Source: a virus. Taken from it: 21,451 nt of DNA. Below, in pieces: positions 6,257 to 19,868 of this stretch; position 1 is the stretch's first letter; each line of letters begins with the position of its first letter. Made by a program: the position numbers and the translations under genes. The stretch spans positions 1 to 21,451 of the IMG/VR virus record IMGVR_UViG_3300009104_000139; one strand, given 5' to 3'. The notes beneath the pieces were generated by a model. It was not told the origin of the DNA. It saw nothing but the letters and a program-made list of their open reading frames with translations, and did not search any database.

Positions 6257-6288
6257 AAATATTCAACTTAGATTGAATTGAATTCAAC
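6257..6288 (-). terminator. AT-rich terminator-like repeat B
   Basis: Minus strand half-sites GTTGAA, TTCAA, TTGAA (6288 down to 6262) followed by TATTTTTC. The stem TTCAA-TCTAAG-TTGAA is short and AU-rich. The stop codon of the sigma region 4 gene lies in the first half-site. It is a diverged copy of repeats A and C. Confidence 0.5.
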
Positions 6289-6679
6289 TTACCCAACATG
6301 AAATGAGCTCTGGAGCGATTTTTCTTAGTTTTCTTAATGCTTTTGCTTCAATTTGTCTGATTCTTTCACGAGTAACATCAAATTGTCTTCCCACTTCCTC
6401 GGGTGTATGGTCAGCGCTCATATCGATTCCAAATCGCATTTTCAATACTTTTGACTCTCTTGGAGAAAGTTTTTCAAGCGCCTCTCGTATTTTTTTATTG
6501 ATGTTAGATTCTATTGCCATATCTTCTACATCAACAACGATATCTTCAAATTCAACAGAAGCATTTAATTCACATTCATCAGAAAGTGTCTTACAGATTT
6601 TTGCATAACGACTAAAATCCTTTTTGCGTATATCTCTTAAAGCTTTACTTTGTTCTGTAGTTTTAAATTTCCAAGTCAT
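6284..6679 (-). CDS. Stand-alone sigma-70 region 4 protein
   Basis: 131 residues. Residues 58-119 are close to the C-terminal end of bacterial Rpo[16 protein letters not shown], then [10 protein letters not shown] and [17 protein letters not shown], the region 4.2 helix-turn-helix that binds the -35 box and the beta-flap. Residues 44-70 resemble the region 3.2-to-4 linker. There is no region 2, so it cannot melt a promoter alone. It is distinct from gp55, which has only the region 2-like part. It may compete with host sigma region 4, replace it, or act as a promoter-specific co-factor (inference). The ATG is 3 nt after the upstream stop, with GGAT overlapping that stop, so it shares an operon with the 132-residue unknown gene. 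The C-terminus (ISCWVS) lacks the usual RpoD tail. Confidence 0.85.
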
Positions 6680-9736: not shown

Positions 9737-10351
9737 TTATTTTCCTTTTCTTATTAAATCACAATTATAAGACAATGTTCGCCTTACTTGGTCGGTGGTA
9801 TTAAACGGATATACACAATGTAACAGAGAGTATGGAAATACAAAAAACTCTCCCACTTGTGCATCTACTCGTACTTGTGACCTAGAGAGTGGCGATTGGT
9901 CGCCGCCAGCAAATTCTAACCATCCGTTCGCAGGCGCTTCTTCTCTTGATGCTTCTATACCATAGGATTCAGGTCGTTTTAACATCAGTACAGACGATAG
10001 TCCTATTTCACTTACTGCGCTTGTATGATAATGTACAGGATTATATTCGCCTGATTTCATTTCATTTATCCAAGCGTGGTTCAAAACTGGTTCCCAAATT
10101 TCATCATTTGTAACAATGTCTAAATAATGTTGAAAAAGGTTTTGAAACCCATTTCTCATCTCATCAGTTAGTATCTCAGTAACTAATTTTTCATCTGCAA
10201 TTTTACCAGCAAGTTGGTCGTTATGTGGTTTTAGTTCTTTTGAATTGTCATCATATGCATGATTAATACTATCTACGAAATATTTAGGTAATTTAAATCT
10301 TATTATCTTAGTTCCTAGATTAAAAATATTATATTCCACTTCTCTCAACAT
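9737..10351 (-). CDS. 2-oxoglutarate/Fe(II) oxygenase-like protein (1)
   Basis: 204 residues. Residues 107-110 read HYHT within AWINEMKSGEYNPVHYHTS, a likely metal-binding segment; FVFPYSLLHCV supplies the distal His (178), and RRTLSYN carries the Arg that usually holds 2-oxoglutarate. The overall pattern (aromatic strand, HxH, FPs..H, R.s.sfN) is that of the double-stranded beta-helix oxygenases related to PF13759. Target unknown. The ATG at 10351 overlaps the gp46 stop (TAATG), so expression is coupled to gp46. This is the most divergent of the four HxH-type members in the window. Confidence 0.75.
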   Translation of the reverse strand: MLREVEYNIFNLGTKIIRFKLPKYFVDSINHAYDDNSKELKPHNDQLAGKIADEKLVTEILTDEMRNGFQNLFQHYLDIVTNDEIWEPVLNHAWINEMKSGEYNPVHYHTSAVSEIGLSSVLMLKRPESYGIEASREEAPANGWLEFAGGDQSPLSRSQVRVDAQVGEFFVFPYSLLHCVYPFNTTDQVRRTLSYNCDLIRKGK

Positions 10352-12066
10352 TATTGCATCATCCTTGTAAAATTGTTCTGTTTCGTAAATGTCATTACTC
10401 TTGGGAACTTGTCGATTAAAGTATCAGCTTTGTGAGATATTATAAAGACATTTTCTTTATTCATTGTATGATATAATATTCTCATAAACTCATCTGTGCC
10501 TGCTGTGTCTAGCGAAGAATCAAATATCTCATCTAGTATAAGCAGATTTGTGTTTGTTGAGTTCTTCAACTTAGCAATCTCACGCCAAGTGAATAATATC
10601 GCCAAGTCAATTCTTAATTTCTCACCCTCACTAAATGAATGATACTGAAAATCATCACGGTGTCTTGATTTAATTGTTTCATTGAATTCTTCATCAAGTG
10701 TAAAGTTGACAAAGAAGTCCATATCCGATAAGTGCTTATTTATATACTGATTCATTATCGGCAAATACTGTTTGATAATCTTCGTCTTAATACCACTATC
10801 TTGCATGAGATGTCTTGCAGTATCGATATAAAGTTTTTCTTCTTTTTCTTTTAACTTTGTTTTTTCTGCATCAACAAGCTGTTCTTGTAGTTGATTCAAT
10901 TCGCCTGTTGCAACCCCTGTTGAAAACTTTTCATCTGATAAGTTATCTATTTCTTCTTGTATTCTTTTCTTGTACTTTTCAATTTCAGTTATAGATGTTT
11001 CATAACGACCAATCAATAATTCTTTTTCTCTTATCGTAACAAGAGTTTCATTAATCTTATCTAGTTTCTTTTGTGATGTTCTGATTGCATTGTCAAGTTG
11101 TTTCATGCCAAGTTCTAGTTCAACAACTTTAGATTCTTTGACGGCGATTGTTGCCTTCTTAAATGCCTCGTCAATCGCCTGATTACATGTAGGGCAATCG
11201 TCATGTTCTTTAAAGAATCTCAATTCTTTTTTATGTTTGATACAAGTATTTTCTATCTTTGCTTCCATGGTCGTCAGTTTGCCATGTTTGTCTTTTAGTT
11301 TTGTTTCATCAATTATATCTATCTGTAAGTCTGCAATCTCTCGTCTAACACGAGCAATATCTTCTCTGTAGTTGTCTATATCTGTATCTGCATTTTCAAT
11401 TTCTAGTTTCTTTGACTCAACAGTATCTTTATTGGTATTACTAATATCATCTATATGTTTCTGTTGTGTTTCTATCTTACCATCAATCATCTGATAATTG
11501 AAATCTGCTTGTTTGATTGTTTCGTCTTGTGCCTTTGCCTTCTCTCTGAACATTAGATTCAGTTTAGAAAAGATTTCAATATCAAGTATTTCTTCTACGA
11601 CTTCTCGTCTGTGTCTGGCACGAAGTTGCATAAAAGGAACAAACGAAGCATTACCCAATATCACAACTTGTGTGAATGACCTAAAGTTTAGTTTGAGTAT
11701 GTGTTGTTCTAAATGTTTTTGATAATCTCTTATGGCCGCATCTTGATTCAACATATCACCATTACACCAAATCTCAAATACATTAGGTTTTATGCCACGA
11801 ATGATTTTATATTCTTTTTTGCCTATCTGAAACTCAACTTCAACTACACACTCCTTTTCATTGATTGTGTTTATAAGTTGGTCTTTTTTGACAGCACGAA
11901 ATGGTTTGCCGAATAGACCAAAACACAAGGCATCTAACATTGTAGATTTACCGGCACCATTATTACCAACAACAAGTATTGTGGGGGCTTCGTTTAAATT
12001 AATCTCTATAAATTGTTGCCCTGTTGATAAAAAGTTTTTATATCTTACTTTTTTAAATATTATCAT
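10351..12066 (-). CDS. 46: gp46-like recombination endonuclease subunit (Rad50/SbcC family)
   Basis: 571 residues, close to T4 gp46. The N-terminus has the SMC-type Walker A GNNGAGKS (34-41), the centre is a long coiled coil with a zinc-hook CPTC (291-294), and the C-terminus has the ABC signature FSEGEKLRID and Walker B LLILDEIFD. With gp47 it forms the Mre11/Rad50-like complex that resects DNA ends for recombination-dependent replication. The ATG overlaps the upstream oxygenase stop as ATGA, with only a weak ribosome site, so coupling is likely. In T4, genes 47 and 46 are close neighbours; here two oxygenase genes lie between them. Confidence 0.95.
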   Translation of the reverse strand: MIIFKKVRYKNFLSTGQQFIEINLNEAPTILVVGNNGAGKSTMLDALCFGLFGKPFRAVKKDQLINTINEKECVVEVEFQIGKKEYKIIRGIKPNVFEIWCNGDMLNQDAAIRDYQKHLEQHILKLNFRSFTQVVILGNASFVPFMQLRARHRREVVEEILDIEIFSKLNLMFREKAKAQDETIKQADFNYQMIDGKIETQQKHIDDISNTNKDTVESKKLEIENADTDIDNYREDIARVRREIADLQIDIIDETKLKDKHGKLTTMEAKIENTCIKHKKELRFFKEHDDCPTCNQAIDEAFKKATIAVKESKVVELELGMKQLDNAIRTSQKKLDKINETLVTIREKELLIGRYETSITEIEKYKKRIQEEIDNLSDEKFSTGVATGELNQLQEQLVDAEKTKLKEKEEKLYIDTARHLMQDSGIKTKIIKQYLPIMNQYINKHLSDMDFFVNFTLDEEFNETIKSRHRDDFQYHSFSEGEKLRIDLAILFTWREIAKLKNSTNTNLLILDEIFDSSLDTAGTDEFMRILYHTMNKENVFIISHKADTLIDKFPRVMTFTKQNNFTRMMQ

Positions 12067-12683
12067 GTTAAAATTAATTCCGTTAAGTCTTTGTTAATGC
12101 CTATTTTTCCTCGCACAAAAGTGTTAAATGCAATAGAAATTCTATCCGTAGTTGCCCTTTCGTTTGGCTGCACCCTATGATTTAACCACGATGGAAATAT
12201 AATAAGTTCATTAGTTATAGAAGGAAAAAACCAATTAGAAGAATTCCATAAATTATAATCTTTTATTTCGGGTTTCATCATTTCTTTTAAGAGCCAATTT
12301 TGGTCAATAAATGTAATCCTATCATCTTCTTCAGTTGATACATAAAAAACTCCACTTATAAAACTATTGGGATGACAATGTTGGTGATGTTGTTCGCCTG
12401 GTTTAGTTACATTTAACCATGATTGTGTGATATATAAATCTAATTCTTCTTTGGGAGCGAAAACTTCTTTAGCATATGTTTTAATATGGTGCTCACAAAA
12501 TTGTTTTAACTCTTTAAGATTTTCATCAAAAATATAATTATTCTTTGTAGATAAATTATAGTCATTATCAACCATCCCTTCTTTAATAATTTTTTGAATT
12601 TCTTCTTTAGAAGTTAAGTCTGAATCGCTTCTTGCGATATATACAGGAGTTGGGAATAAACCCTTTATTTCACCTTTCATCAT
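12063..12683 (-). CDS. 2-oxoglutarate/Fe(II) oxygenase, TIGR02466-like (2)
   Basis: 206 residues. It has LFPTPVY at the N-terminus, HCHPNSFISGVFYV (metal site, H102/H104), FPSWLNHRV (distal His 169) and DRISIAFN (Arg 181). This is the pattern of the TIGR02466/PF13759 family of putative 2OG oxygenases, frequent in marine phages. It is similar to proteins 6 and 7 in this window and probably their paralogue. The ATGATG start overlaps the stop of the preceding oxygenase gene. Substrate unknown. Confidence 0.85.
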   Translation of the reverse strand: MMKGEIKGLFPTPVYIARSDSDLTSKEEIQKIIKEGMVDNDYNLSTKNNYIFDENLKELKQFCEHHIKTYAKEVFAPKEELDLYITQSWLNVTKPGEQHHQHCHPNSFISGVFYVSTEEDDRITFIDQNWLLKEMMKPEIKDYNLWNSSNWFFPSITNELIIFPSWLNHRVQPNERATTDRISIAFNTFVRGKIGINKDLTELILT

Positions 12684-13309
12684 TGTAATTTATCATAAAT
12701 TTCATTAAAATTATACCACCCAGTAACTATCATTTTTTCATGGTCATTTGATATTTGGCCTTTGTGAGTGTGTGTCCAAGCACTAGGCCAAATTAATGTT
12801 AATCCTTTTTTACAAGGCACAGTAATGTTTTGGTATTTAAAATGTGTTCCTGCATTTGGCACATCATCACAATAAGTCATAAAAACCAAATGTCTATGAA
12901 TATTCCATTGGTTTCCTAAAGATTCTGCGTGCCATTTTTTATATCCACCGCCTTTCGGATACCATTGTAGATTATAAGCCTCTCTTATATTAAAGGATTT
13001 GACATTATTAGATTCTGCAAATAGTTTTAAATAATTATTTAAACAACCTTGTAAATAGGTTCTATATTCAAACCACGGATTGCTGTCATCATCAGGCCGA
13101 ATGTAAATATCAATAGACTCTTTTGTAGATGAATTGACTCCTTGCGAATCTGAATCGCCTTCACCACTACTCCCACTCTCACCAGAAATTTTATATTGTT
13201 GAGCATCTGGTGAGTTCCAATATTCATTTATATTATCTATAACCGACTCTGGCATAAACCAACCACCCATGTGTGTGCTTTTATCTAACTCAAATTTATT
13301 TAATTGCAT
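12680..13309 (-). CDS. Prolyl-4-hydroxylase-type 2OG/Fe(II) oxygenase (3)
   Basis: 209 residues from the ATG at 13309, chosen because AGGA lies 5 nt upstream; an in-frame TTG at 13327 has no clear site. YNLQWYPKGGGYKKWHAES gives an HxE-type iron motif (H127, E129) instead of the usual HxD. PSAWTHTHKG gives the distal His, and the last strand KMIVTGWYNF has Lys, not Arg, near the co-substrate position. Residues about 42-65 form a Ser/Gly/Asp-rich insertion (SGESGSSGEGDSDSQG) not expected in this fold. The start overlaps the gp47 end by 14 nt. Function and substrate unknown. Confidence 0.75.
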   Translation of the reverse strand: MQLNKFELDKSTHMGGWFMPESVIDNINEYWNSPDAQQYKISGESGSSGEGDSDSQGVNSSTKESIDIYIRPDDDSNPWFEYRTYLQGCLNNYLKLFAESNNVKSFNIREAYNLQWYPKGGGYKKWHAESLGNQWNIHRHLVFMTYCDDVPNAGTHFKYQNITVPCKKGLTLIWPSAWTHTHKGQISNDHEKMIVTGWYNFNEIYDKLQ

Positions 13310-14396
13310 CTGTGTCCTGAGCTTCAATATACATTTCTTTAATCATCACCTTCAGTCTGTCTTTATCTAGGTCAACTTTCAACTGGTCAACATAGTTACT
13401 CACTAAATTCATTGTATCTTCTGCACCTTCGACAACATCATCACTTACATTTACATGCGATAGGTCAGAATAATCTTCAAGTATTTTTAATTCGTGTACA
13501 GATATATCATTATACAGTCTTTCTAGCAATCTGTCAAACATTTCGTTATCTGATTTTTGAACAACGACCAACTTCACATACTTTTGATGATATTCTGTAA
13601 TGTCAATTTTGTCATAATTTATACAAGCACCATCATCTTCTGTGCCTGTAGCATCATCATAATAAAGTTTAATAAACATAGTAAATGGATTAGGCACAAA
13701 CTCGACCTCTCGTGTTTCAGTATCGAACACATGAAAACCTTTCTGATTCTGATAATCTGACCATGTGATTTCATACTGATTGCCCAAATAGAACACTTGA
13801 CCATCATCATTCTTGTGATGAAAATGGCCACTATAAGTTTTCTCAAAACGACTTACAATACCTTTATCGTGTCCGTGTGTTTGTTTCATGGCATCATTCA
13901 TTGCAAAGCCGTTTAAATCAAAATGCCCCATACAAACATCTGCTTCGGCAGTTCTAAGTAGTTCGATTGAATCTGCCTCATTCTCTGGATTAATCCAAGG
14001 CATCATCAATATTTTTGTACCATCAAAATCTACTACTTTACCTTCTTCGTATATCCAAGGCTCATTCTTACCATCAGCACTTGTGCATAATTCTTGCAAA
14101 GCATTTACTTTGTTTGTGTTTCGATAATAGATGTCGTGGTTGCCAATGATGAAATGTGTGTCTATCTTTTCTTCCCATAATCGCTTCATAAACTTATTTC
14201 TAAAGTTATATGCGATTCTAAAATTGATAAACTTTCGTCTGTCTACAACATCACCAAGATGTATTAGCGTTTTGATGTTGTGTTCTTTTAGATAGGGAAA
14301 AAATATCTCATCATAAAACTTGTGAAAGAAATCATCAAAGATAAGACTATCGTTTCTGGCGCCGAAATGGGTGTCATTTAGTAATGCAATTTTCAT
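13296..14396 (-). CDS. 47: gp47-like recombination endonuclease subunit (Mre11/SbcD family)
   Basis: 366 residues, near the length of T4 gp47. Metallophosphoesterase motifs are in order: NDTHFG (7-12), GDVVDRR (48-54), GNHD (85-88), MGHFD (156-160) and SGHFHHK (189-195). These bind two metal ions for the exonuclease/endonuclease reaction. It pairs with gp46 in the end-resection complex. No clear ribosome site precedes the ATG; the upstream gene ends 13 nt before it, so translation may be coupled. Confidence 0.95.
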   Translation of the reverse strand: MKIALLNDTHFGARNDSLIFDDFFHKFYDEIFFPYLKEHNIKTLIHLGDVVDRRKFINFRIAYNFRNKFMKRLWEEKIDTHFIIGNHDIYYRNTNKVNALQELCTSADGKNEPWIYEEGKVVDFDGTKILMMPWINPENEADSIELLRTAEADVCMGHFDLNGFAMNDAMKQTHGHDKGIVSRFEKTYSGHFHHKNDDGQVFYLGNQYEITWSDYQNQKGFHVFDTETREVEFVPNPFTMFIKLYYDDATGTEDDGACINYDKIDITEYHQKYVKLVVVQKSDNEMFDRLLERLYNDISVHELKILEDYSDLSHVNVSDDVVEGAEDTMNLVSNYVDQLKVDLDKDRLKVMIKEMYIEAQDTDAIK

Positions 14397-14409
14397 AATA
14401 TATTATTTT

Positions 14410-14874
14410 TTAGTTATCTAATTTAAGCCAATATCTTGTTCCAGAAGTTACTGGTTTTACTCTGTGCCTCACAAAAGAAGGGAATACCACAATGGAACCT
14501 TTCGGTGTTATCTCTGTACACACTTCAGATTCAATCTCTAAATCTCCACCTTCGTATTCTGTATCATCTGATAGGTTTATCATAACTGATAACTTTTTTG
14601 AAGAATCACAATTCCAGTCTGAAAAGTCACCTTCTGTATATTTTTTGAATTGACATAATTCTGAAAAAGCCCAATCAAAGTTCCAATTAGACTCTACATT
14701 TGCTTCGTTGATATATGGATGTATTTCTTTATAGAGCCAGTCAGCGTCCATCCAAACAACATCAGAACCAATCTCATTTGGTATTGTTAATTTTCCTGAC
14801 TGGAGTAATGCATTAACCCTAATGTCATCACAAAATGATGGGCGAATTGCTGACTGAACATAATAAAAATTCAT
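14410..14874 (-). CDS. PKHD-type oxygenase homologue with altered iron site (4)
   Basis: 154 residues. It follows the PKHD-type hydroxylase pattern closely: QFKKYTEGDFSDWNCDSS, KKLSVMINLSDDTEYEGGDLEI, GSIVVFPSFVRHRVKPVTSGTRYWL. The iron motif is normally HxD, but here it is Asn88-Cys-Asp90 (codon AAT at 14611-14613, one base from CAT). The distal His137 and Arg147 are kept. The protein stops soon after GTRYWL, earlier than usual, with LKLDN. It may be an inactive homologue or one using a different ligand set. No strong ribosome site is visible. The frame is intact and motif spacing is good, so it is called a gene rather than a pseudogene. Confidence 0.75.
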   Translation of the reverse strand: MNFYYVQSAIRPSFCDDIRVNALLQSGKLTIPNEIGSDVVWMDADWLYKEIHPYINEANVESNWNFDWAFSELCQFKKYTEGDFSDWNCDSSKKLSVMINLSDDTEYEGGDLEIESEVCTEITPKGSIVVFPSFVRHRVKPVTSGTRYWLKLDN

Positions 14875-14884
14875 AATGTAATTA

Positions 14885-15388
14885 TTATTTAGATTCTTCT
14901 GGTTCTTCTCTACTGTTTCTTCTGAGAAAATCTAACATAGCGCTTTGATACTGTGTATCATCGCCTTCAAGTGAGTCCATCATTTGTTCGACACCAAAGT
15001 TAGCAATCATCTTTTGTTTGACTTCTTGCTGTTTCTTTTCTTTTTGTATTCTACGAATAAACGCATAGTAAATTATCTGTGTAAAATATGCGAATGGGTT
15101 GTTACTCTTTTCGGGGTCGAAGTTGTCCATATACTGTAGACAATTCTCTATGCCATCAGAAATCATATCATCTCTGTATGTATAGTTGATAAAATTAGGT
15201 CGATAAGATAAATGATTGGCAATCTTTAGATAACATTCACCTATATAATTACTTACAGTAGGTCGTGGTTTGCCTTCTTCTTCAGCCTTAATTCTTAATG
15301 CACGATACTCTGTCATTGCTGCCAAAAACTTCTTATTATCTACATAATGAGGTTTTTGTTTTGGTTTTAACTTTTCTTCTTCTGCCAT
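14885..15388 (-). CDS. 55: gp55-like late-transcription sigma factor
   Basis: 167 residues. The segment PNFINYTYRDDMISDGIENCLQY, then NPFAYFTQIIYYAFIRRIQKEKK is the characteristic core of T4 and cyanophage gp55, the small sigma-2-like protein that directs RNA polymerase to TATAAATA promoters. Several exact TATAAATA sites occur in this window, consistent with its role. The ATG at 15388 has AAGGA 7 nt upstream and is preferred over an in-frame ATG at 15409. A perfect sigma-70 promoter at 15556-15584 lies upstream with a 52-codon ORF between. Confidence 0.95.
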   Translation of the reverse strand: MAEEEKLKPKQKPHYVDNKKFLAAMTEYRALRIKAEEEGKPRPTVSNYIGECYLKIANHLSYRPNFINYTYRDDMISDGIENCLQYMDNFDPEKSNNPFAYFTQIIYYAFIRRIQKEKKQQEVKQKMIANFGVEQMMDSLEGDDTQYQSAMLDFLRRNSREEPEESK

Positions 15389-15389
15389 A

Positions 15390-15548
15390 TTATAGTCCTT
15401 TTCGGTCATTACGCTTCATAAGATTCTTCAAACTTTTCACTAAATTACTTTTCTTTTTTGATTTGCGATTCTTCAATAAATGAAGTTTCTCTTTGATATG
15501 TTTTAATTGAGCGTCTTTTTTGATGTTTCTACTAGTTGTTTTATTCAT
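15390..15548 (-). CDS. Possible 52-residue basic protein upstream of gp55
   Basis: MNKTTSRNIKK...NDRKGL, about 19 of 52 residues Lys or Arg, predicted mostly helical. The stop codon lies 1 nt before the gp55 ATG, so coupling is plausible. The ATG at 15548 falls 1 nt after the predicted transcription start of the promoter at 15556-15584, so it would be translated from an essentially leaderless mRNA. No homologue is recognised. It could also be just the gp55 leader, but the frame is open from the promoter to gp55. Confidence 0.45.
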   Translation of the reverse strand: MNKTTSRNIKKDAQLKHIKEKLHLLKNRKSKKKSNLVKSLKNLMKRNDRKGL

Positions 15549-15555
15549 GTGATTT

Positions 15556-15584
15556 ATTATACTATACCTAGTCTGGGTTGTCAA
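15556..15584 (-). promoter_or_regulatory. Consensus sigma-70 promoter for the gp55 unit
   Basis: Minus strand TTGACA (15579-15584), 17-bp spacer, TATAAT (15556-15561), both perfect. It is back-to-back with the rightward promoter at 15620-15648. Confidence 0.85.
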
Positions 15585-15619
15585 GCATCTTATTAGAATA
15601 AATTATTTGGAATAATCGC

Positions 15620-15648
15620 TTGACAAGAGCAAAAAATGAGTGTATAAT
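15620..15648 (+). promoter_or_regulatory. Consensus sigma-70 promoter facing right
   Basis: Plus strand TTGACA (15620-15625), 17-bp spacer, TATAAT (15643-15648), both perfect. It is the only convincing plus-strand promoter in the window. Its transcript would start near 15655 and run antisense into the Sm-like and uvsW genes. No plus-strand gene with a ribosome site follows. Confidence 0.8.
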
Positions 15649-15654
15649 CGCACA

Positions 15655-15726
15655 TGTAGGTGCGGTGAGAGACCTTAATGGCTAAGAGCTAATTAGTGAA
15701 CTGTTACTCCTTTCTCTAGTAGTTCA
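15655..15726 (+). ncRNA. Candidate antisense/small RNA from the rightward promoter
   Basis: Inferred only from the perfect promoter just upstream. The first bases (GTAGGTGCGGTGAGAGACC...) hold small inverted repeats. A bulged stem TGAACT...ACT / AGT-AGTTCA (15697-15726) overlaps the 3' end of the Sm-like gene. No U-tract follows, so the 3' end is unknown. The only short ORF (ATG at 15679) has 4 codons. Confidence 0.3.
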
Positions 15727-16145
15727 AACTCCTCATCTTCTTTATTTGCGAACTCAGAATCAAGTTCTTCTGCAATATCCAATATTCTATCTATATCTTC
15801 ACTTGTAAGTGGTGGGCGTAATGCAAGTTTCTCATCAGTTGCTTGAATCTTTTGTAGCACAACTTCATAATAATGTGCCAACTCAACAGTCGCAAGTGAT
15901 ATGACTACAATCTTATCTTTTGTAATAACGAATTCTTTATCTTGTGAAAAAGGTATCCATCTTGATAGCATTGTATCTTCCTTTAACCCAAACTCCGTCA
16001 TACGAGGTGTTGTAACCAGTTCTAATGGGTTTACAATTCTCATATAATCATTATCAACAGATATAGTTCCCATCAATAGACTTCCGTCCATCAACTTTAC
16101 TAGCCTGTAATCAGTCGGGTGATTTGGTTCATTTTGTGTTTGCAT
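15693..16145 (-). CDS. Conserved phage protein with Sm-like fold pattern
   Basis: 150 residues. Residues about 12-95 resemble a small beta-barrel: YRLVKLMDGSLLMGTI followed by MRIVNPLELV is similar to the Sm1 motif of Sm/Lsm proteins, and KEFVITKDKIVVISLA could be the Sm2 strands. The C-terminal 45 residues are acidic (EDEEFELLEKG). A homologue next to uvsW is, from memory, common in cyanophages, but its role is unknown. RNA binding is only a possibility. A GATAAATA box (16151-16158), one base off the late promoter, ends 5 nt before the ATG. Confidence 0.7.
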   Translation of the reverse strand: MQTQNEPNHPTDYRLVKLMDGSLLMGTISVDNDYMRIVNPLELVTTPRMTEFGLKEDTMLSRWIPFSQDKEFVITKDKIVVISLATVELAHYYEVVLQKIQATDEKLALRPPLTSEDIDRILDIAEELDSEFANKEDEEFELLEKGVTVH

Positions 16146-16150
16146 ACTTA

Positions 16151-16158
16151 TATTTATC
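16151..16158 (-). promoter_or_regulatory. Possible variant late promoter (GATAAATA)
   Basis: Minus strand GATAAATA, then 5 nt, then the ATG at 16145. This is the same spacing as the exact late box before the ATG at 20794. One mismatch and the overlap with the end of uvsW make it tentative. Confidence 0.3.
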
Positions 16159-17635
16159 AGTCTTTAAGGTCTATATTGTGCATTTCGTAATCAAATTCTT
16201 CTTCTGTGTAGATGTTTATTCTCTCCTGAAAGTGTTTAAGAGTAAAGTTTTCTTTTGACTTCCAAGTCATATCGTCTGCAATATCATACAATGTGGCATC
16301 AACTTTGTTCTCACCAAGTCTTAGACCACGACCAATCGATTGTAGATTTCTCACTCTACTCTTAGAAGGACTTGCAAATATGATATTGTGTAAATTCTTA
16401 ATATTGACACCAGTAGAGAATGTGCCATAACTTGCAACAATGATTGCGTTACTTTCTTTTTCAACAATGCCTCGAATTGTTTCTCTTTCATCAGCCTCTA
16501 CACCACCAAAAATATAAAAGACTTTTCTATCATCAGCTGCCTTGTCTTTGATTATTTGATGTAGATGTTTACCATGTTTCTCTACAAGTTGAAATAATAC
16601 TAGTGTGTTGCCTTCTAATTTAATTGCAAGATTACGAATGAAGTTTTGCCTTGACCGACTACTTACAAGATAGTCAATCTCATCCTGATACTTGCCTTTT
16701 GCAATCATTTGACAATTCTCTGGTGTATGTTTTAGAATCAAACAACGAACAGTCAACTGTGATAATTGTTTTTTGTCCATCAGTTTCTTCGTTGATGTAA
16801 CTTTGTTGACAGCACCAAACAAACCCTCTAATACAAGTTTATGTGTCTGAGCACCATCAAGTGTTCCTGTCAACCCGATTCTGTATTTACAGTCTGTCAG
16901 TTTAGACATAATCTCTGTCAATGATTTTGATTTAAACAGATGTGCCTCATCACCAAACACAACACCGAACTGGTCAAAATAATTTTTCGGCAGTCGATAC
17001 AAACTTTGCCATGTCGAAATCAAAACTCTTTTGTCAGTAACATTTGAATATCCACTATACAATCTATGACAATACTTTTTTACATTCCAACCATACTCTT
17101 TGAAGTCAGAATACATTTGTTCTACAAGTGAAGTTGTCGGCACGATTAAAAGTATTCGATTGTTTGTATCGTCTTTGATTAGGTGTGTATAGTATCGAAT
17201 AAGTGAATAGATGATAAATGATTTACCACTTGCAGTCGGACTTAACAGTAACGCACGATTAAATTTCAGACTGTGAAAGATAGCATCAACTTGATAATCT
17301 CTTGCCTCAAACTTCTGGCCGAGGCTGTTAGAAAACTTTTCAACAAGTTCTCTCGTTACTTTATTTTCTACTACAACATCTTTACCAGCGACAACATTAT
17401 ACCCTCTTTCTTCTGCAAACGCCTTGATATAAGGATACAATCCAAAATATATTTCTTTTGTCTTTTGTGAGAATAATCTTATCTTGCCATCCCACATACG
17501 ATTGCGAAACGCAGGCATGAATTTATATCCAGGCACATAGAATGTGAAGAACTCTGAGAGCTCTCGTTGAATACTTGGGTCAGCATCAACAGTCAAATAT
17601 ACCTCGTCTTTCTTCTCTAAGATGAGAGTTTCCAT
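16157..17635 (-). CDS. uvsW: UvsW-like superfamily 2 helicase
   Basis: 492 residues, similar to T4 UvsW. Helicase motifs are in order: Q-motif-like region ARDYQVDAI, Walker A SPTASGKS (132-139), DEAH box (229-232), LTGT (255-258) and QSIGRGLR (motif VI). The N-terminal 100 residues correspond to the UvsW DNA-binding domain, with FMPAFRNRMWDGKIRLF. UvsW unwinds R-loops and branched DNA, helping switch from origin-dependent to recombination-dependent replication. The ATG directly follows the stop of the upstream oxygenase (TAAATG), with GGATT upstream. Confidence 0.95.
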   Translation of the reverse strand: METLILEKKDEVYLTVDADPSIQRELSEFFTFYVPGYKFMPAFRNRMWDGKIRLFSQKTKEIYFGLYPYIKAFAEERGYNVVAGKDVVVENKVTRELVEKFSNSLGQKFEARDYQVDAIFHSLKFNRALLLSPTASGKSFIIYSLIRYYTHLIKDDTNNRILLIVPTTSLVEQMYSDFKEYGWNVKKYCHRLYSGYSNVTDKRVLISTWQSLYRLPKNYFDQFGVVFGDEAHLFKSKSLTEIMSKLTDCKYRIGLTGTLDGAQTHKLVLEGLFGAVNKVTSTKKLMDKKQLSQLTVRCLILKHTPENCQMIAKGKYQDEIDYLVSSRSRQNFIRNLAIKLEGNTLVLFQLVEKHGKHLHQIIKDKAADDRKVFYIFGGVEADERETIRGIVEKESNAIIVASYGTFSTGVNIKNLHNIIFASPSKSRVRNLQSIGRGLRLGENKVDATLYDIADDMTWKSKENFTLKHFQERINIYTEEEFDYEMHNIDLKD

Positions 17636-18199
17636 TTACATAATCCAAGTCATAACACTAAATCGTTTTCCTTTTGTTACTTCTTTGACTTCATGTGGAT
17701 ACATAAAGTTAGATGGAAAAATGATAGCAGAGCCTTGTTTCTTCTCTATCTGTTTGTCGCCACAAAGAACAAACTCACCACCTTCATAATCATCATTTAA
17801 AAAGATTAAAGATGTGATGTGTGGATAACCATATTTTTGTCCATGACTGTGATGTATATTATCAATGTGTTGTTTCATAAATCCACCCTCTTTATAGAAA
17901 TTTAATCTAAAGTTGGTGCATATCAATTGATAATCTAGCGTTTTGTGAGTGCTTTTGTAGTCGTCTAAACAATGGCCAAAAGATTTTTTAAGTTGTTCAA
18001 AGTATGGCATTTGTTTATCAATCCAAAGTTCATTCATTGAAACTTTTGAAGTTCCTGTATCGTTTTCACCATCATAAAATGTCGATTCTTTCCACTTTGC
18101 TGTTTTTTCATAACTATTTACTATTGATTCACAAGTTTTTGTATCCATAGCATCTGGATAAAAATATATGTAATCAGAAATTTGCTGACTGGTATTCAT
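17636..18199 (-). CDS. Prolyl-4-hydroxylase-type 2OG/Fe(II) oxygenase (5)
   Basis: 187 residues. This is the most canonical oxygenase here: FRLNFYKEGGFMKQHID gives HxD (H111, D113), FPSNFMYPHEV gives the distal His169, and KGKRFSVMTWIM carries Arg179 for 2-oxoglutarate. A YEGGEF strand precedes it, as in P4H-like proteins. It probably hydroxylates a protein or small-molecule substrate, but none can be named. AGGAGAACATA precedes the ATG. The gene overlaps the end of oxygenase 6 by 26 nt. Confidence 0.85.
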   Translation of the reverse strand: MNTSQQISDYIYFYPDAMDTKTCESIVNSYEKTAKWKESTFYDGENDTGTSKVSMNELWIDKQMPYFEQLKKSFGHCLDDYKSTHKTLDYQLICTNFRLNFYKEGGFMKQHIDNIHHSHGQKYGYPHITSLIFLNDDYEGGEFVLCGDKQIEKKQGSAIIFPSNFMYPHEVKEVTKGKRFSVMTWIM

Positions 18200-18776
18200 T
18201 ATGTTCTCCTACTTGTCCTTTCAATTGCACATTCCATGCAATACTAATGCGTTTGTTTTTTGATATATTTTGAGGCACCCAATGTTGCAACCATGATGGG
18301 AAAATAATACATCTGTTAGTTTTAGAATTGAATGATAGTAAATTTGAGTTGTTGTGTGTTTTCTTAGTCTTTCTAGGCACGAACACATCTGATTGTGGTC
18401 TTGGGTCAAAGAATTGAATGCCTGCAGCTTTATCTGAATGTAGATAATAAACACCACTTAGAAAATTATTTGAGTGAGTGTGTGGCGGATGTGCCTCTTT
18501 GCTTCGTAATACATTTCCCCACATGTCAGTAATTGCAATATCTTCAACATCATAATCTAAAAGTTTTATTTGTTCTTTGCTTTTTTGAATGACCTTTTCT
18601 GCGAACTTTTCAAATGCAGGTTTAGTGTGTAAGTCTGGTTCTGTTTGCCAGTTGTTGTCGTATTCTCTTATTGTCCAGAGTTGCTCAATGTATTGTTTCA
18701 TATCATTACTGATTGACTTGTCGATAAAGTCATCTTCTACAAAAATGTTTGTGGCAAATACTGAATGTTGAATCAT
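18174..18776 (-). CDS. 2-oxoglutarate/Fe(II) oxygenase, TIGR02466-like (6)
   Basis: 200 residues from the ATG at 18776, which overlaps the uvsY stop (TAATG) and has GGAG upstream; a longer in-frame start inside uvsY is less likely. HTHSNNFLSGVYYL gives H99/H101, FPSWLQHWV gives H165, KRISIAWN gives Arg176. An insert of about 30 residues (DVFVPRKTKKTHNNS region) lies between the metal site and the distal His, as in proteins 2 and 7. Confidence 0.85.
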   Translation of the reverse strand: MIQHSVFATNIFVEDDFIDKSISNDMKQYIEQLWTIREYDNNWQTEPDLHTKPAFEKFAEKVIQKSKEQIKLLDYDVEDIAITDMWGNVLRSKEAHPPHTHSNNFLSGVYYLHSDKAAGIQFFDPRPQSDVFVPRKTKKTHNNSNLLSFNSKTNRCIIFPSWLQHWVPQNISKNKRISIAWNVQLKGQVGEHNEYQSANF

Positions 18777-19204
18777 TAGATTGCTCCACTCGTAAATTTC
18801 TTCCACTCGATTGCATTTTTAATTATGAAGTTTCGAGTGTTAATACTTCTCAAAACTTGTTCGAGATAGTTCACTACTTGTTTGAGATATGCTTCTTTCT
18901 GGTCAGCCTTCTGTAGTTCATCATCTGATTCCATATAGATGTGAACATCAGCCTTCAGTATTTTTAAGTCGAATGGTTTTTCTTTATAGACAGACGGGTC
19001 TGCTTTACCTGTATAGTATTCCCACTTCTGTCGTTTCAGAACTTTATGTTCATACTCTGCTTTCTTTAGAAGTAAAGAAAACTTGTTGAAGTGTTGTAGG
19101 TATTTGTTGTGTAGTAGAGGTATTTTGATTGACTCTGTGTCAAGTTCTGTATCATCTAGTGCAAAATCACGGTCAACCGATTGTTGTAGTTCTTCTAGTG
19201 TCAT
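18776..19204 (-). CDS. uvsY: UvsY-like recombination mediator
   Basis: 142 residues, as for T4 UvsY (137). The core LDTESIKIPLLHNKYLQHF, KRQKWEYYTGKADPSVYKEKPFDLKILK and RNFIIKNAIEWKKFTSG is characteristic. UvsY loads UvsX recombinase on gp32-coated single-stranded DNA. In T4 uvsW and uvsY are adjacent; here two oxygenase genes separate them. AAAGGCGAATAAATT precedes the ATG, overlapping the end of oxygenase 7. Confidence 0.9.
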   Translation of the reverse strand: MTLEELQQSVDRDFALDDTELDTESIKIPLLHNKYLQHFNKFSLLLKKAEYEHKVLKRQKWEYYTGKADPSVYKEKPFDLKILKADVHIYMESDDELQKADQKEAYLKQVVNYLEQVLRSINTRNFIIKNAIEWKKFTSGAI

Positions 19205-19207
19205 AAT

Positions 19208-19804
19208 TTATTCGCCTTTATAGTAAGTATTGAACGAAAACGAAACTCTATCTTCGATTTTATTCATATTTGATTCTACATGGTGTTTTAGCCAAGAGGG
19301 AAATAGATAAAGTTTGCTTTCGTAAACAGGCATGTTCCATGCCAATGAATCATATGAATTTCTTTCTGATTTAGGTTTTCTTTGAGAATCCCAGTATTCT
19401 AATACATCTGATAATGGGTGTTCAAAAACTATTTGACCACAATAATCTGGAGTTTTTATATAATACACACCTGATATTTCACTATTAGGGTGTTGATGTG
19501 TTATGTTAGAATCTTTGTAACCGTTTATATTAAACCATATATTAGATATTCTTTGCTCACAACTATTCATAATTTTGTCAGCAAAATTGTTTGAGTTTAA
19601 TTCTATTTGTTCGATTAGTGGTTGTAGAATAGACTCGTTTAAATCTAAGTCCTCTGATTGATAGCCACCTATATTGCTTATACTTCGGCCTTGTTCAGTT
19701 TTTCTATATTCATTGCAGTAATTATATAGTTTTTGATTGTCGATATCTAACTGAAATTCATAAACTGGAACTCTGAATATATCGTGTACCAATGGATTTT
19801 TCAT
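19208..19804 (-). CDS. 2-oxoglutarate/Fe(II) oxygenase, TIGR02466-like (7)
   Basis: 198 residues from the ATG at 19804. HQHPNSEISGVYYI gives H103/H105, FPSWLKHHV gives His174/175, DRVSFSFN gives Arg186. The N-terminal VHDIFRVPVYEF matches the FxtPvy start of the family. It is the paralogue closest to protein 2 (shared HPNS). A late promoter at 19833-19840 lies upstream; its predicted start is about 23 nt before the ATG. No good ribosome site is seen. A longer in-frame start at 19849 would overlap the promoter and is rejected. Confidence 0.85.
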   Translation of the reverse strand: MKNPLVHDIFRVPVYEFQLDIDNQKLYNYCNEYRKTEQGRSISNIGGYQSEDLDLNESILQPLIEQIELNSNNFADKIMNSCEQRISNIWFNINGYKDSNITHQHPNSEISGVYYIKTPDYCGQIVFEHPLSDVLEYWDSQRKPKSERNSYDSLAWNMPVYESKLYLFPSWLKHHVESNMNKIEDRVSFSFNTYYKGE

Positions 19805-19832: not shown

Positions 19833-19840
19833 TATTTATA
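19833..19840 (-). promoter_or_regulatory. T4-type late promoter (TATAAATA) for oxygenase 7/uvsY
   Basis: Exact TATAAATA on the minus strand, 2 bp after the hairpin at 19843-19857. It would drive oxygenase 7, uvsY and the genes behind them. Confidence 0.7.
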
Positions 19841-19842
19841 CG

Positions 19843-19857
19843 CCCACAAAAAGTGGG
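19843..19857 (-). terminator. Short hairpin before the late promoter
   Basis: Minus strand CCCAC-TTTTT-GTGGG, followed by CG and the late box. There is no U-tract after the stem, so termination may be weak. It lies 11 bp after the stop codon of the tube-like gene. Confidence 0.45.
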
Positions 19858-19868
19858 TATTTCAAGTG

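Follow-up and report, generated by a model that had tools for sequence, protein, structure and literature searches.

We analyzed a stretch of 21,451 bases from a virus (IMG/VR record IMGVR_UViG_3300009104_000139), a genome fragment hereafter called the window, in which seven genes of the 2-oxoglutarate (2OG)/Fe(II) oxygenase family (ox1 to ox7) lie among recombination and late-transcription genes of the T4 type. Within positions 9737-19804, each of the seven oxygenase open reading frames (ORFs) was found intact on the minus strand, and the block is composed as follows, a slot being the junction between two named core genes.

9737..10351, minus strand: oxygenase #1 (ox1), PF13759, HYH...H...R; slot gp46/peptide deformylase; TAATG overlap with gp46
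10351..12066, minus strand: gp46, SbcC-like recombination nuclease subunit (phrog_77, 6e-169)
12063..12683, minus strand: oxygenase #2 (ox2), PF13759/TIGR02466, HCH; ATGA overlap with gp46
12680..13309, minus strand: oxygenase #3 (ox3), phrog_61, HAE...H...K; ORF call reaches 13327, likely ATG at 13309
13296..14396, minus strand: gp47, SbcD-like nuclease subunit (phrog_100, 6.6e-94)
14410..14874, minus strand: oxygenase #4 (ox4), PKHD-like, 154 amino acids, shortened; Asn88 instead of the first iron-ligand His
14885..15409, minus strand: gp55 late sigma factor (phrog_234, 3e-62)
15693..16145, minus strand: small core gene, "methylamine utilization" by annotation of relatives (phrog_471, 5.7e-8)
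16157..17635, minus strand: uvsW helicase (phrog_16, 6.6e-108)
17636..18199, minus strand: oxygenase #5 (ox5), PF13640, H111-x-D113...H169...R179; slot uvsY/uvsW
18174..18776, minus strand: oxygenase #6 (ox6), PF13759/TIGR02466, H109-x-H111...H175...R186 (numbering of the 210-amino-acid ORF); slot uvsY/uvsW; likely true start ATG at 18776, overlapping the uvsY stop, ORF call extends to 18806
18776..19204, minus strand: uvsY recombination mediator (phrog_231, 8e-50)
19208..19804, minus strand: oxygenase #7 (ox7), PF13759/TIGR02466, HQH; slot gp19-like/uvsY; likely start 19804, ORF call to 19849

The original prediction, that seven 2OG/Fe(II)-family genes within 10 kb overlap or abut gp46, gp47, gp55, uvsW, and uvsY, was borne out by Pfam, PHROG, and TIGR02466 profiles for the family and by coordinates and PHROG matches for the neighbors; the identities of gp46, gp47, gp55, uvsW, uvsY, peptide deformylase, and gp23 were all upheld. 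The seven proteins fall into two family groups. Four are PF13759 proteins with HxH...H...R (ox1, 1.2e-9; ox2, 6.2e-22; ox6, 9.7e-23; ox7, 1.0e-20; all exceeding the curated cut-off), and three belong to the PF13640/phrog_61 group, in which ox4 (1.4e-9) and ox5 (2.9e-17) exceed the PF13640 cut-off. The exception among the seven is ox3, which at 2.7e-5 and 25.5 bits is 1.5 bits short of the PF13640 cut-off of 27, so that six of the seven pass a curated Pfam cut-off of the 2OG families; ox3 matches phrog_61 at 5e-30, and hhalign pairs its profile with the ox5 profile at 94%. The expectation that all four PF13759 proteins are TIGR02466-like held for ox2, ox6, and ox7, which pass that cut-off, and ox1 is marginal and not above it. 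As the comparison of the ox1 and ox6 profiles reached only 21%, the assignment of ox1 rests on Pfam and PHROG; a sequence search of the PDB with ox1 gave no usable match. Recent duplication of one family was ruled out as the origin of the seven genes, since the members of each group share 14-23% identity with its first member and the profiles of ox6 and ox5 scarcely align (8.6% probability). PF09859 matched ox5 at an E-value of only 0.19. The phrog_61 proteins of marine phages have been likened to human EGLN3 by the Phold authors (PMC12774648). PHROG families labeled "DNA endonuclease V" or "DNA endonuclease" match ox5 (phrog_2297, 1e-18) and ox6 (phrog_274, 7e-7), labels that may mislead annotation.

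By uvsW, the window is closest among isolates to Pelagibacter phage Mosig (62%) and Methylophilales phage Melnitz (58%), followed by Synechococcus and Prochlorococcus T4-like phages, and thus represents an uncultured Kyanoviridae-like marine phage. A nucleotide search with the block gave no match among isolate phages. Relatives were gathered with gp47, uvsW, and gp46 as protein queries, yielding 184 loci, 150 of them from the same clade; overlapping loci of one contig are counted apart in these 150, the contigs are not all independent (the window and locus L004 are one population), and few contigs span every slot. Cassettes are present or absent between relatives exactly at ORF boundaries, and the ends of genes are where the nucleotide similarity of the window to L019, L084, and L006 is lost and regained. 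L019, in which no core gene is missing (uvsW 91%, gp47 88% identical), has no oxygenase at all, and in L019 and L020 (uvsW 91-92% identical) they are missing from every slot covered. The sibling contig 3300021957_000347 (loci L089 and L013, uvsW 93%) carries an orthologue of each of the seven and, in addition, three clear PF13759 genes, a probable 2OG gene, and a cupin-like gene. The product of the probable 2OG gene (L089:5736-6275, 179 amino acids, adjoining the gp19-like gene) has HxD and a distal His and matches phrog_274 (5e-16), with no Pfam family above cut-off. The cupin/JmjC-like gene (202-204 amino acids; L089:11628-12236 and L086:6115-6729) lies in the uvsW/gp55 interval of relatives, is absent from the window, and possibly encodes an oxygenase.

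Five of the oxygenases, ox1, ox2, ox3, ox4, and ox7, are sporadic among the relatives (about 150 IMG/VR contigs) and occur in partial combinations. L026 has only ox1, ox5, and ox6, and L006 has an ox7 homologue together with an ox4-like gene in the uvsY/uvsW slot. Homologues of ox3 occupy the gp47/gp46 slot in L009, L005, and L022 and the gp46/deformylase slot in L043, and the ox1 homologue of L086 lies in uvsY/uvsW. In the trees, which have several long branches and of which only well-supported groupings were used, the ox1 and ox3 clades mix copies from different slots, whereas the ox6 orthologues cluster together and share a single slot. Of the five slots in which 2OG genes occur, four seldom contain one: 6/81 contigs at gp19-like/uvsY, where 30 others hold a gene of the 262-amino-acid type; 3/120 at gp55/gp47; 6/92 at gp47/gp46, where the insert in 19 further contigs is an MT-A70 methylase gene, a PD-(D/E)XK nuclease gene, or a methyltransferase-like gene; and 7/43 at gp46/deformylase. 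Across gp47/gp46, gp55/gp47, and gp19-like/uvsY, the non-2OG cargo of relatives comprises MT-A70 methylase, PD-(D/E)XK nuclease, Dam methylase, endonuclease VII, and the 262-amino-acid protein, and it was ruled out that the genes for methylases, nuclease, and endonuclease VII are disguised 2OG genes. Thus, for five of the seven genes, the synteny comparison showed that close relatives have unrelated genes in the corresponding places, the very outcome that the original prediction had named as refuting it; only the ox6/ox5 pair in uvsY/uvsW is conserved in synteny.

Three observations on these slots may be added. The gene found at gp19-like/uvsY in 30 clade contigs, the slot of ox7 in the window, encodes 259-269 amino acids (phrog_30607, 4e-44; L046:1136-1924 and relatives). 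In phage MED4-213, the gp55/gp47 slot holds a gene (L273:4346-5002) for which the label "minor coat protein" looks doubtful; it matches DUF6445 (4e-13), and its 2OG similarity is weak (E 4e-4 to 5e-4, below cut-off). The distant relative L185 has seven genes between gp55 and gp47.

The uvsY/uvsW slot stands apart, as 90 of the 95 near-clade contigs have a 2OG gene there, mostly the ox6-ox5 pair, and 159 of the 160 genes inserted are 2OG genes, a figure tempered by the fact that one vertically inherited lineage, ox6/ox5, supplies most of them. We found no description in the literature of such near-universal and near-exclusive 2OG occupancy of this slot in the clade. For the clade as a whole, 10 of the 23 inserted families in the block are 2OG families, whereas the stretch immediately downstream has 1 among 21 (p = 0.004 by Fisher's test, a post hoc value because the window was picked for this very feature). 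The dense placement had been taken to suggest a shared function within the DNA-repair core; density, family enrichment, and ox6/ox5 synteny stand, and the shared function is mostly unsupported in view of the sporadic, partial sets.

Alternatively, the oxygenases could jointly hydroxylate the machinery to which they are coupled (UvsY, UvsW, gp46/47, gp55) and thereby tune recombination-dependent replication. We consider this unlikely. The enrichment and the start-stop coupling to core genes fit it, as does the 2OG gene between uvsY and uvsW not only in the 90 clade contigs but also in Mosig, P-SSM4, P-SSM3, and S-ShM2. However, L019 has the same core proteins without any oxygenase, five of the 95 contigs and also Melnitz, S-H38, and S-SKS1 hold no 2OG gene in uvsY/uvsW, the other slots accept methylases, nucleases, and further non-2OG genes, and in phage S-SCSM1 the 2OG genes sit instead among gp45/gp44/gp43/uvsX/gp41 and near psbD. 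The start-stop overlaps (TAATG, ATGA), which suggest translational coupling of a cassette to its core gene, are found at filled and empty junctions alike, and empty gp47/gp46 junctions keep ATGA. Partial sets, homologues in differing slots, and the loss of an iron ligand in ox4 (see below) are evidence against one shared reaction.

Promoter-like elements bear on the same question. Two were recorded on the minus strand, both as consensus matches only.

15556..15584, minus strand: perfect sigma70-like promoter TTGACA-17-TATAAT, upstream of gp55-ox4-gp47-ox3-ox2-gp46-ox1; a consensus match only
19833..19860, minus strand: hairpin CCCACTTTTTGTGGG followed by the T4-late-promoter-like TATAAATA (19833-19840); lies upstream of ox7/uvsY and is conserved in both L084 and L006

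The hairpin with TATAAATA looks like a candidate T4-type late promoter. If both promoters are used, ox7 to ox5 and ox4 to ox1 would each have a promoter of their own, a further point against a joint pathway. The interval 15556-15648, between gp55 and the "methylamine utilization" gene, contains two perfect TTGACA-17-TATAAT sites back to back on opposite strands.

In comparison to contig 3300021957_000347, the ratio of nonsynonymous to synonymous substitution rates (dN/dS) is 0.12-0.36 for the seven oxygenases and about 0.06-0.09 for most core genes, which marks each of the seven as a genuine gene subject to purifying selection and less tightly constrained than most core genes. The dS values relative to L089 are 0.28-0.38 for ox1-4 and ox7 and 0.54-0.68 for the surrounding core genes, which suggests, without proving it, a separate history in which this cargo was exchanged later than the core.

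The predicted subtypes were largely recovered at the level of the active sites, with HxH in ox1, ox2, ox6, and ox7, HxE (HAE) in ox3, and HxD (HID) in ox5. The canonical 2-His-1-carboxylate triad HxD/E...H is present in ox3 and ox5; orthologues keep HxD...H...R in ox5 and HxE...H in ox3, the latter with a Lys, likewise conserved, close to where Arg normally lies. The four HxH proteins lack the carboxylate ligand and are therefore classed under PF13759 and not as canonical members. Every one of the 98 PF13759-type proteins in the slots has HxH, and the solved structures 3bvc and 2rg4 have HxH plus a distal His and Arg, aligning with ox6. In the ox6 model, HxH ends the strand that matches, in order, the HxD strand of ox5, and the usual carboxylate ligand is thus probably replaced by His. 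PF13759 members are therefore predicted to have a three-His version of the same pocket; their 2OG dependence is an assumption.

The "PKHD-like" label of ox4 needs correction in that the protein has N88-C-D90 in place of HxD, a position at which 79 of 81 aligned sequences have His. Codon 88 lies at 14611-14613 of the window, and the only other sequence with Asn comes from L190/L004, another contig from this population at 99.6% nucleotide identity. Without the first iron-binding His, ox4 is probably inactive, that is, not a working iron enzyme. As a whole, it is still constrained relative to its L089 orthologue (dN/dS 0.33), and we infer that it is a decayed or repurposed copy.

The fold was modeled with AlphaFold for ox6 (42-row alignment, predicted local distance difference test score 81) and ox5 (32-row alignment, score 82) and assigned by hidden Markov models alone for the other five. 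Both models show a double-stranded beta-helix of the prolyl-hydroxylase type, in agreement with the 2OG-type fold expected, with best Z values of 18.0 (ox5) and 20.0 (ox6). The best match of ox5 is 4iw3, the P. putida prolyl hydroxylase with EF-Tu (Z 18.0, root-mean-square deviation 2.7 over 171 residues), followed about one Z lower by algal P4H, PHD2, Trichoplax PHD, and chlorella-virus vCPH; by sequence profile, PiuC is closest (3e-7). The P. putida enzyme (PPHD) and the PKHD hydroxylase PiuC (9qn0, 9ghl) share the fold and HxD...H...R with ox5 at 15-22% identity. For ox6, the best matches are 3bvc from Roseovarius nubinhibens (Z 20.0, root-mean-square deviation 2.3 over 181 residues) and 2rg4 from Oceanicola granulosus (19.9), with the next at 16.9; both are uncharacterized marine TIGR02466-type proteins that share fold, HxH, and distal His/Arg with ox6 at 20-21% identity. 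A literature search on TIGR02466/PF13759 substrates found nothing functional and no characterized relative of ox6 or of the other PF13759 members. For ox5, the fold, the HxD...H...R, and the protein-acting closest structures make a protein prolyl-hydroxylase-like activity the simplest interpretation, although fold similarity does not demonstrate function.

A bacterial prolyl hydroxylase, the structural match of ox5, hydroxylates EF-Tu (PMC7864055), and one could imagine ox6/ox5 as a clade-specific, nearly core two-enzyme hydroxylase system, fixed between uvsY and uvsW and with a three-His iron site in ox6, whose target is a single, defined protein, either from the host or from the replication or translation machinery, e.g., EF-Tu, while the other slots hold a rapidly evolving repertoire of modifiers. 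We attach little probability to this view. Modification or repair of nucleic acids, by AlkB-like demethylation or DNA base oxidation, would be in line with the location, with the proposal of Sullivan et al. 2010 (PMC3037559) that 2OG proteins of cyanophages have a role in DNA repair, and with the adenine methylases in the same slots of relatives. Yet the AlkB (PF13532) and TET/JBP (PF12851) models matched none of the seven proteins at E<=1, and by its fold ox5 falls among the prolyl hydroxylases that act on proteins. We regard a nucleic-acid target as highly improbable.

It has also been proposed for cyanophages that such enzymes act as a sink or sensor of 2OG, oxygen, or iron that alters host nitrogen/carbon signaling, the product being secondary (PMC3037559). 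The effects of several different enzymes would then be additive, and pelagiphage 2OG genes are paired with ferrochelatase genes (PMC9599517). On the other hand, the NtcA argument is specific to cyanobacteria, whereas Pelagibacter and Methylophilales are the hosts of the closest isolates. The residues around the active site are conserved separately within each orthologous group, suggesting selection on specific substrates, and moderate selection on ox4 persists despite the lost iron ligand. We regard this explanation as improbable.

We favor, with a probability of roughly 65%, an accessory-gene hotspot in the recombination operon that is preferentially stocked with hydroxylases acting on different targets, probably often proteins. 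The gene-gene junctions of the recombination/late-transcription operon would serve as accessory-gene slots; ox1, ox2, ox3, ox4, and ox7 are sporadic cargo, relatives having other combinations, other slots, or none, and the ox6/ox5 pair is a near-fixed resident of the clade. The PF13640 members (ox3, ox5, and, before its His was lost, ox4) presumably work as prolyl-hydroxylase/PKHD-type Fe(II)/2OG hydroxylases and may act mainly on protein side chains of host or phage in separate reactions. The placement amid recombination genes would then reflect exchange and co-expression and not a joint role in recombination. Several points weigh against this hotspot explanation: the protein targets are suggested by fold alone and no member has a known substrate, the small-molecule enzymes MysH, HygX, and SnoN also match the ox6 model, and the 2OG enrichment together with the 159/160 usage of uvsY/uvsW exceeds the specificity predicted for a neutral hotspot.

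Among the accessory genes of marine T4-like phages that lack an explanation, those for 2OG oxygenases rank with the most common. A comparison from 2010 tabulated up to five 2OG clusters per genome (PMC3037559), pelagiphages have eight non-orthologous 2OG types, often beside ferrochelatase (PMC9599517), and Synechococcus phage S-SCSM1 has 24 2OG-Fe(II) oxygenase genes (PMC9602691). With T4 core synteny and several 2OG genes, the window belongs to these multi-2OG marine T4-like phages (Kyanoviridae) and, as such phages are already established, is a new, unusually dense example and not a new kind; as the contig is a fragment, further 2OG genes of the same genome may lie outside our view. S-SCSM1 is likewise a T4-like marine member of the Kyanoviridae with many diverse PF13759/PF13640 genes of low mutual identity amid replication genes, eight of them in 69.6-86.3 kb among gp45/gp44/gp62/regA/gp43/uvsX/gp41, but its gp47/gp46 junction holds a Tic22-like gene and no 2OG gene. 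The window has seven starts in 10,068 bases, compared with up to five per 10 kb in the annotated stretch of S-SCSM1 examined, and contig 3300021957_000347 matches or exceeds it (eight, counting the probable one). Mosig (EXVC030M) shares the core gene order and has 2OG or phytanoyl-dioxygenase-like genes in uvsY/uvsW, gp47/gp46, and gp46/deformylase, the first 42% identical to ox6 and the others of low identity; in contrast to the window, it has four such genes in the span and none in gp55/gp47 or gp19-like/uvsY. P-SSM4, P-SSM3, and S-ShM2 also have a 2OG gene between uvsY and uvsW (T4-GC 412 in P-SSM4 and S-ShM2), in P-SSM4 a single PF13640-type protein nearer to ox4 relatives instead of an ox6/ox5 pair. 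Separating the near-fixed pair from the sporadic cargo gives a short candidate list, and the gain/loss pairs (window versus L019) and the natural iron-ligand loss (Asn88 of ox4) are natural controls.

The complete minus-strand order begins with gp23 (3' part), a 111-amino-acid gene, and a gp19-like tail tube gene, continues with ox7-uvsY-ox6-ox5-uvsW, the small "methylamine utilization" gene, and gp55-ox4-gp47-ox3-ox2-gp46-ox1, and proceeds with peptide deformylase, an 81-amino-acid gene, GNAT, a methyltransferase-like gene, a sigma70 region-4 protein, and CobT-like and CobS-like genes. A 423-amino-acid protein (824-2095) weakly resembles a homing-endonuclease family in residues 28-115 (phrog_314, 1.8e-5), without a Pfam match. 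Besides gp55, a 131-amino-acid protein (6284-6679) contains sigma70 region 4 (PF04545, 4.5e-18).

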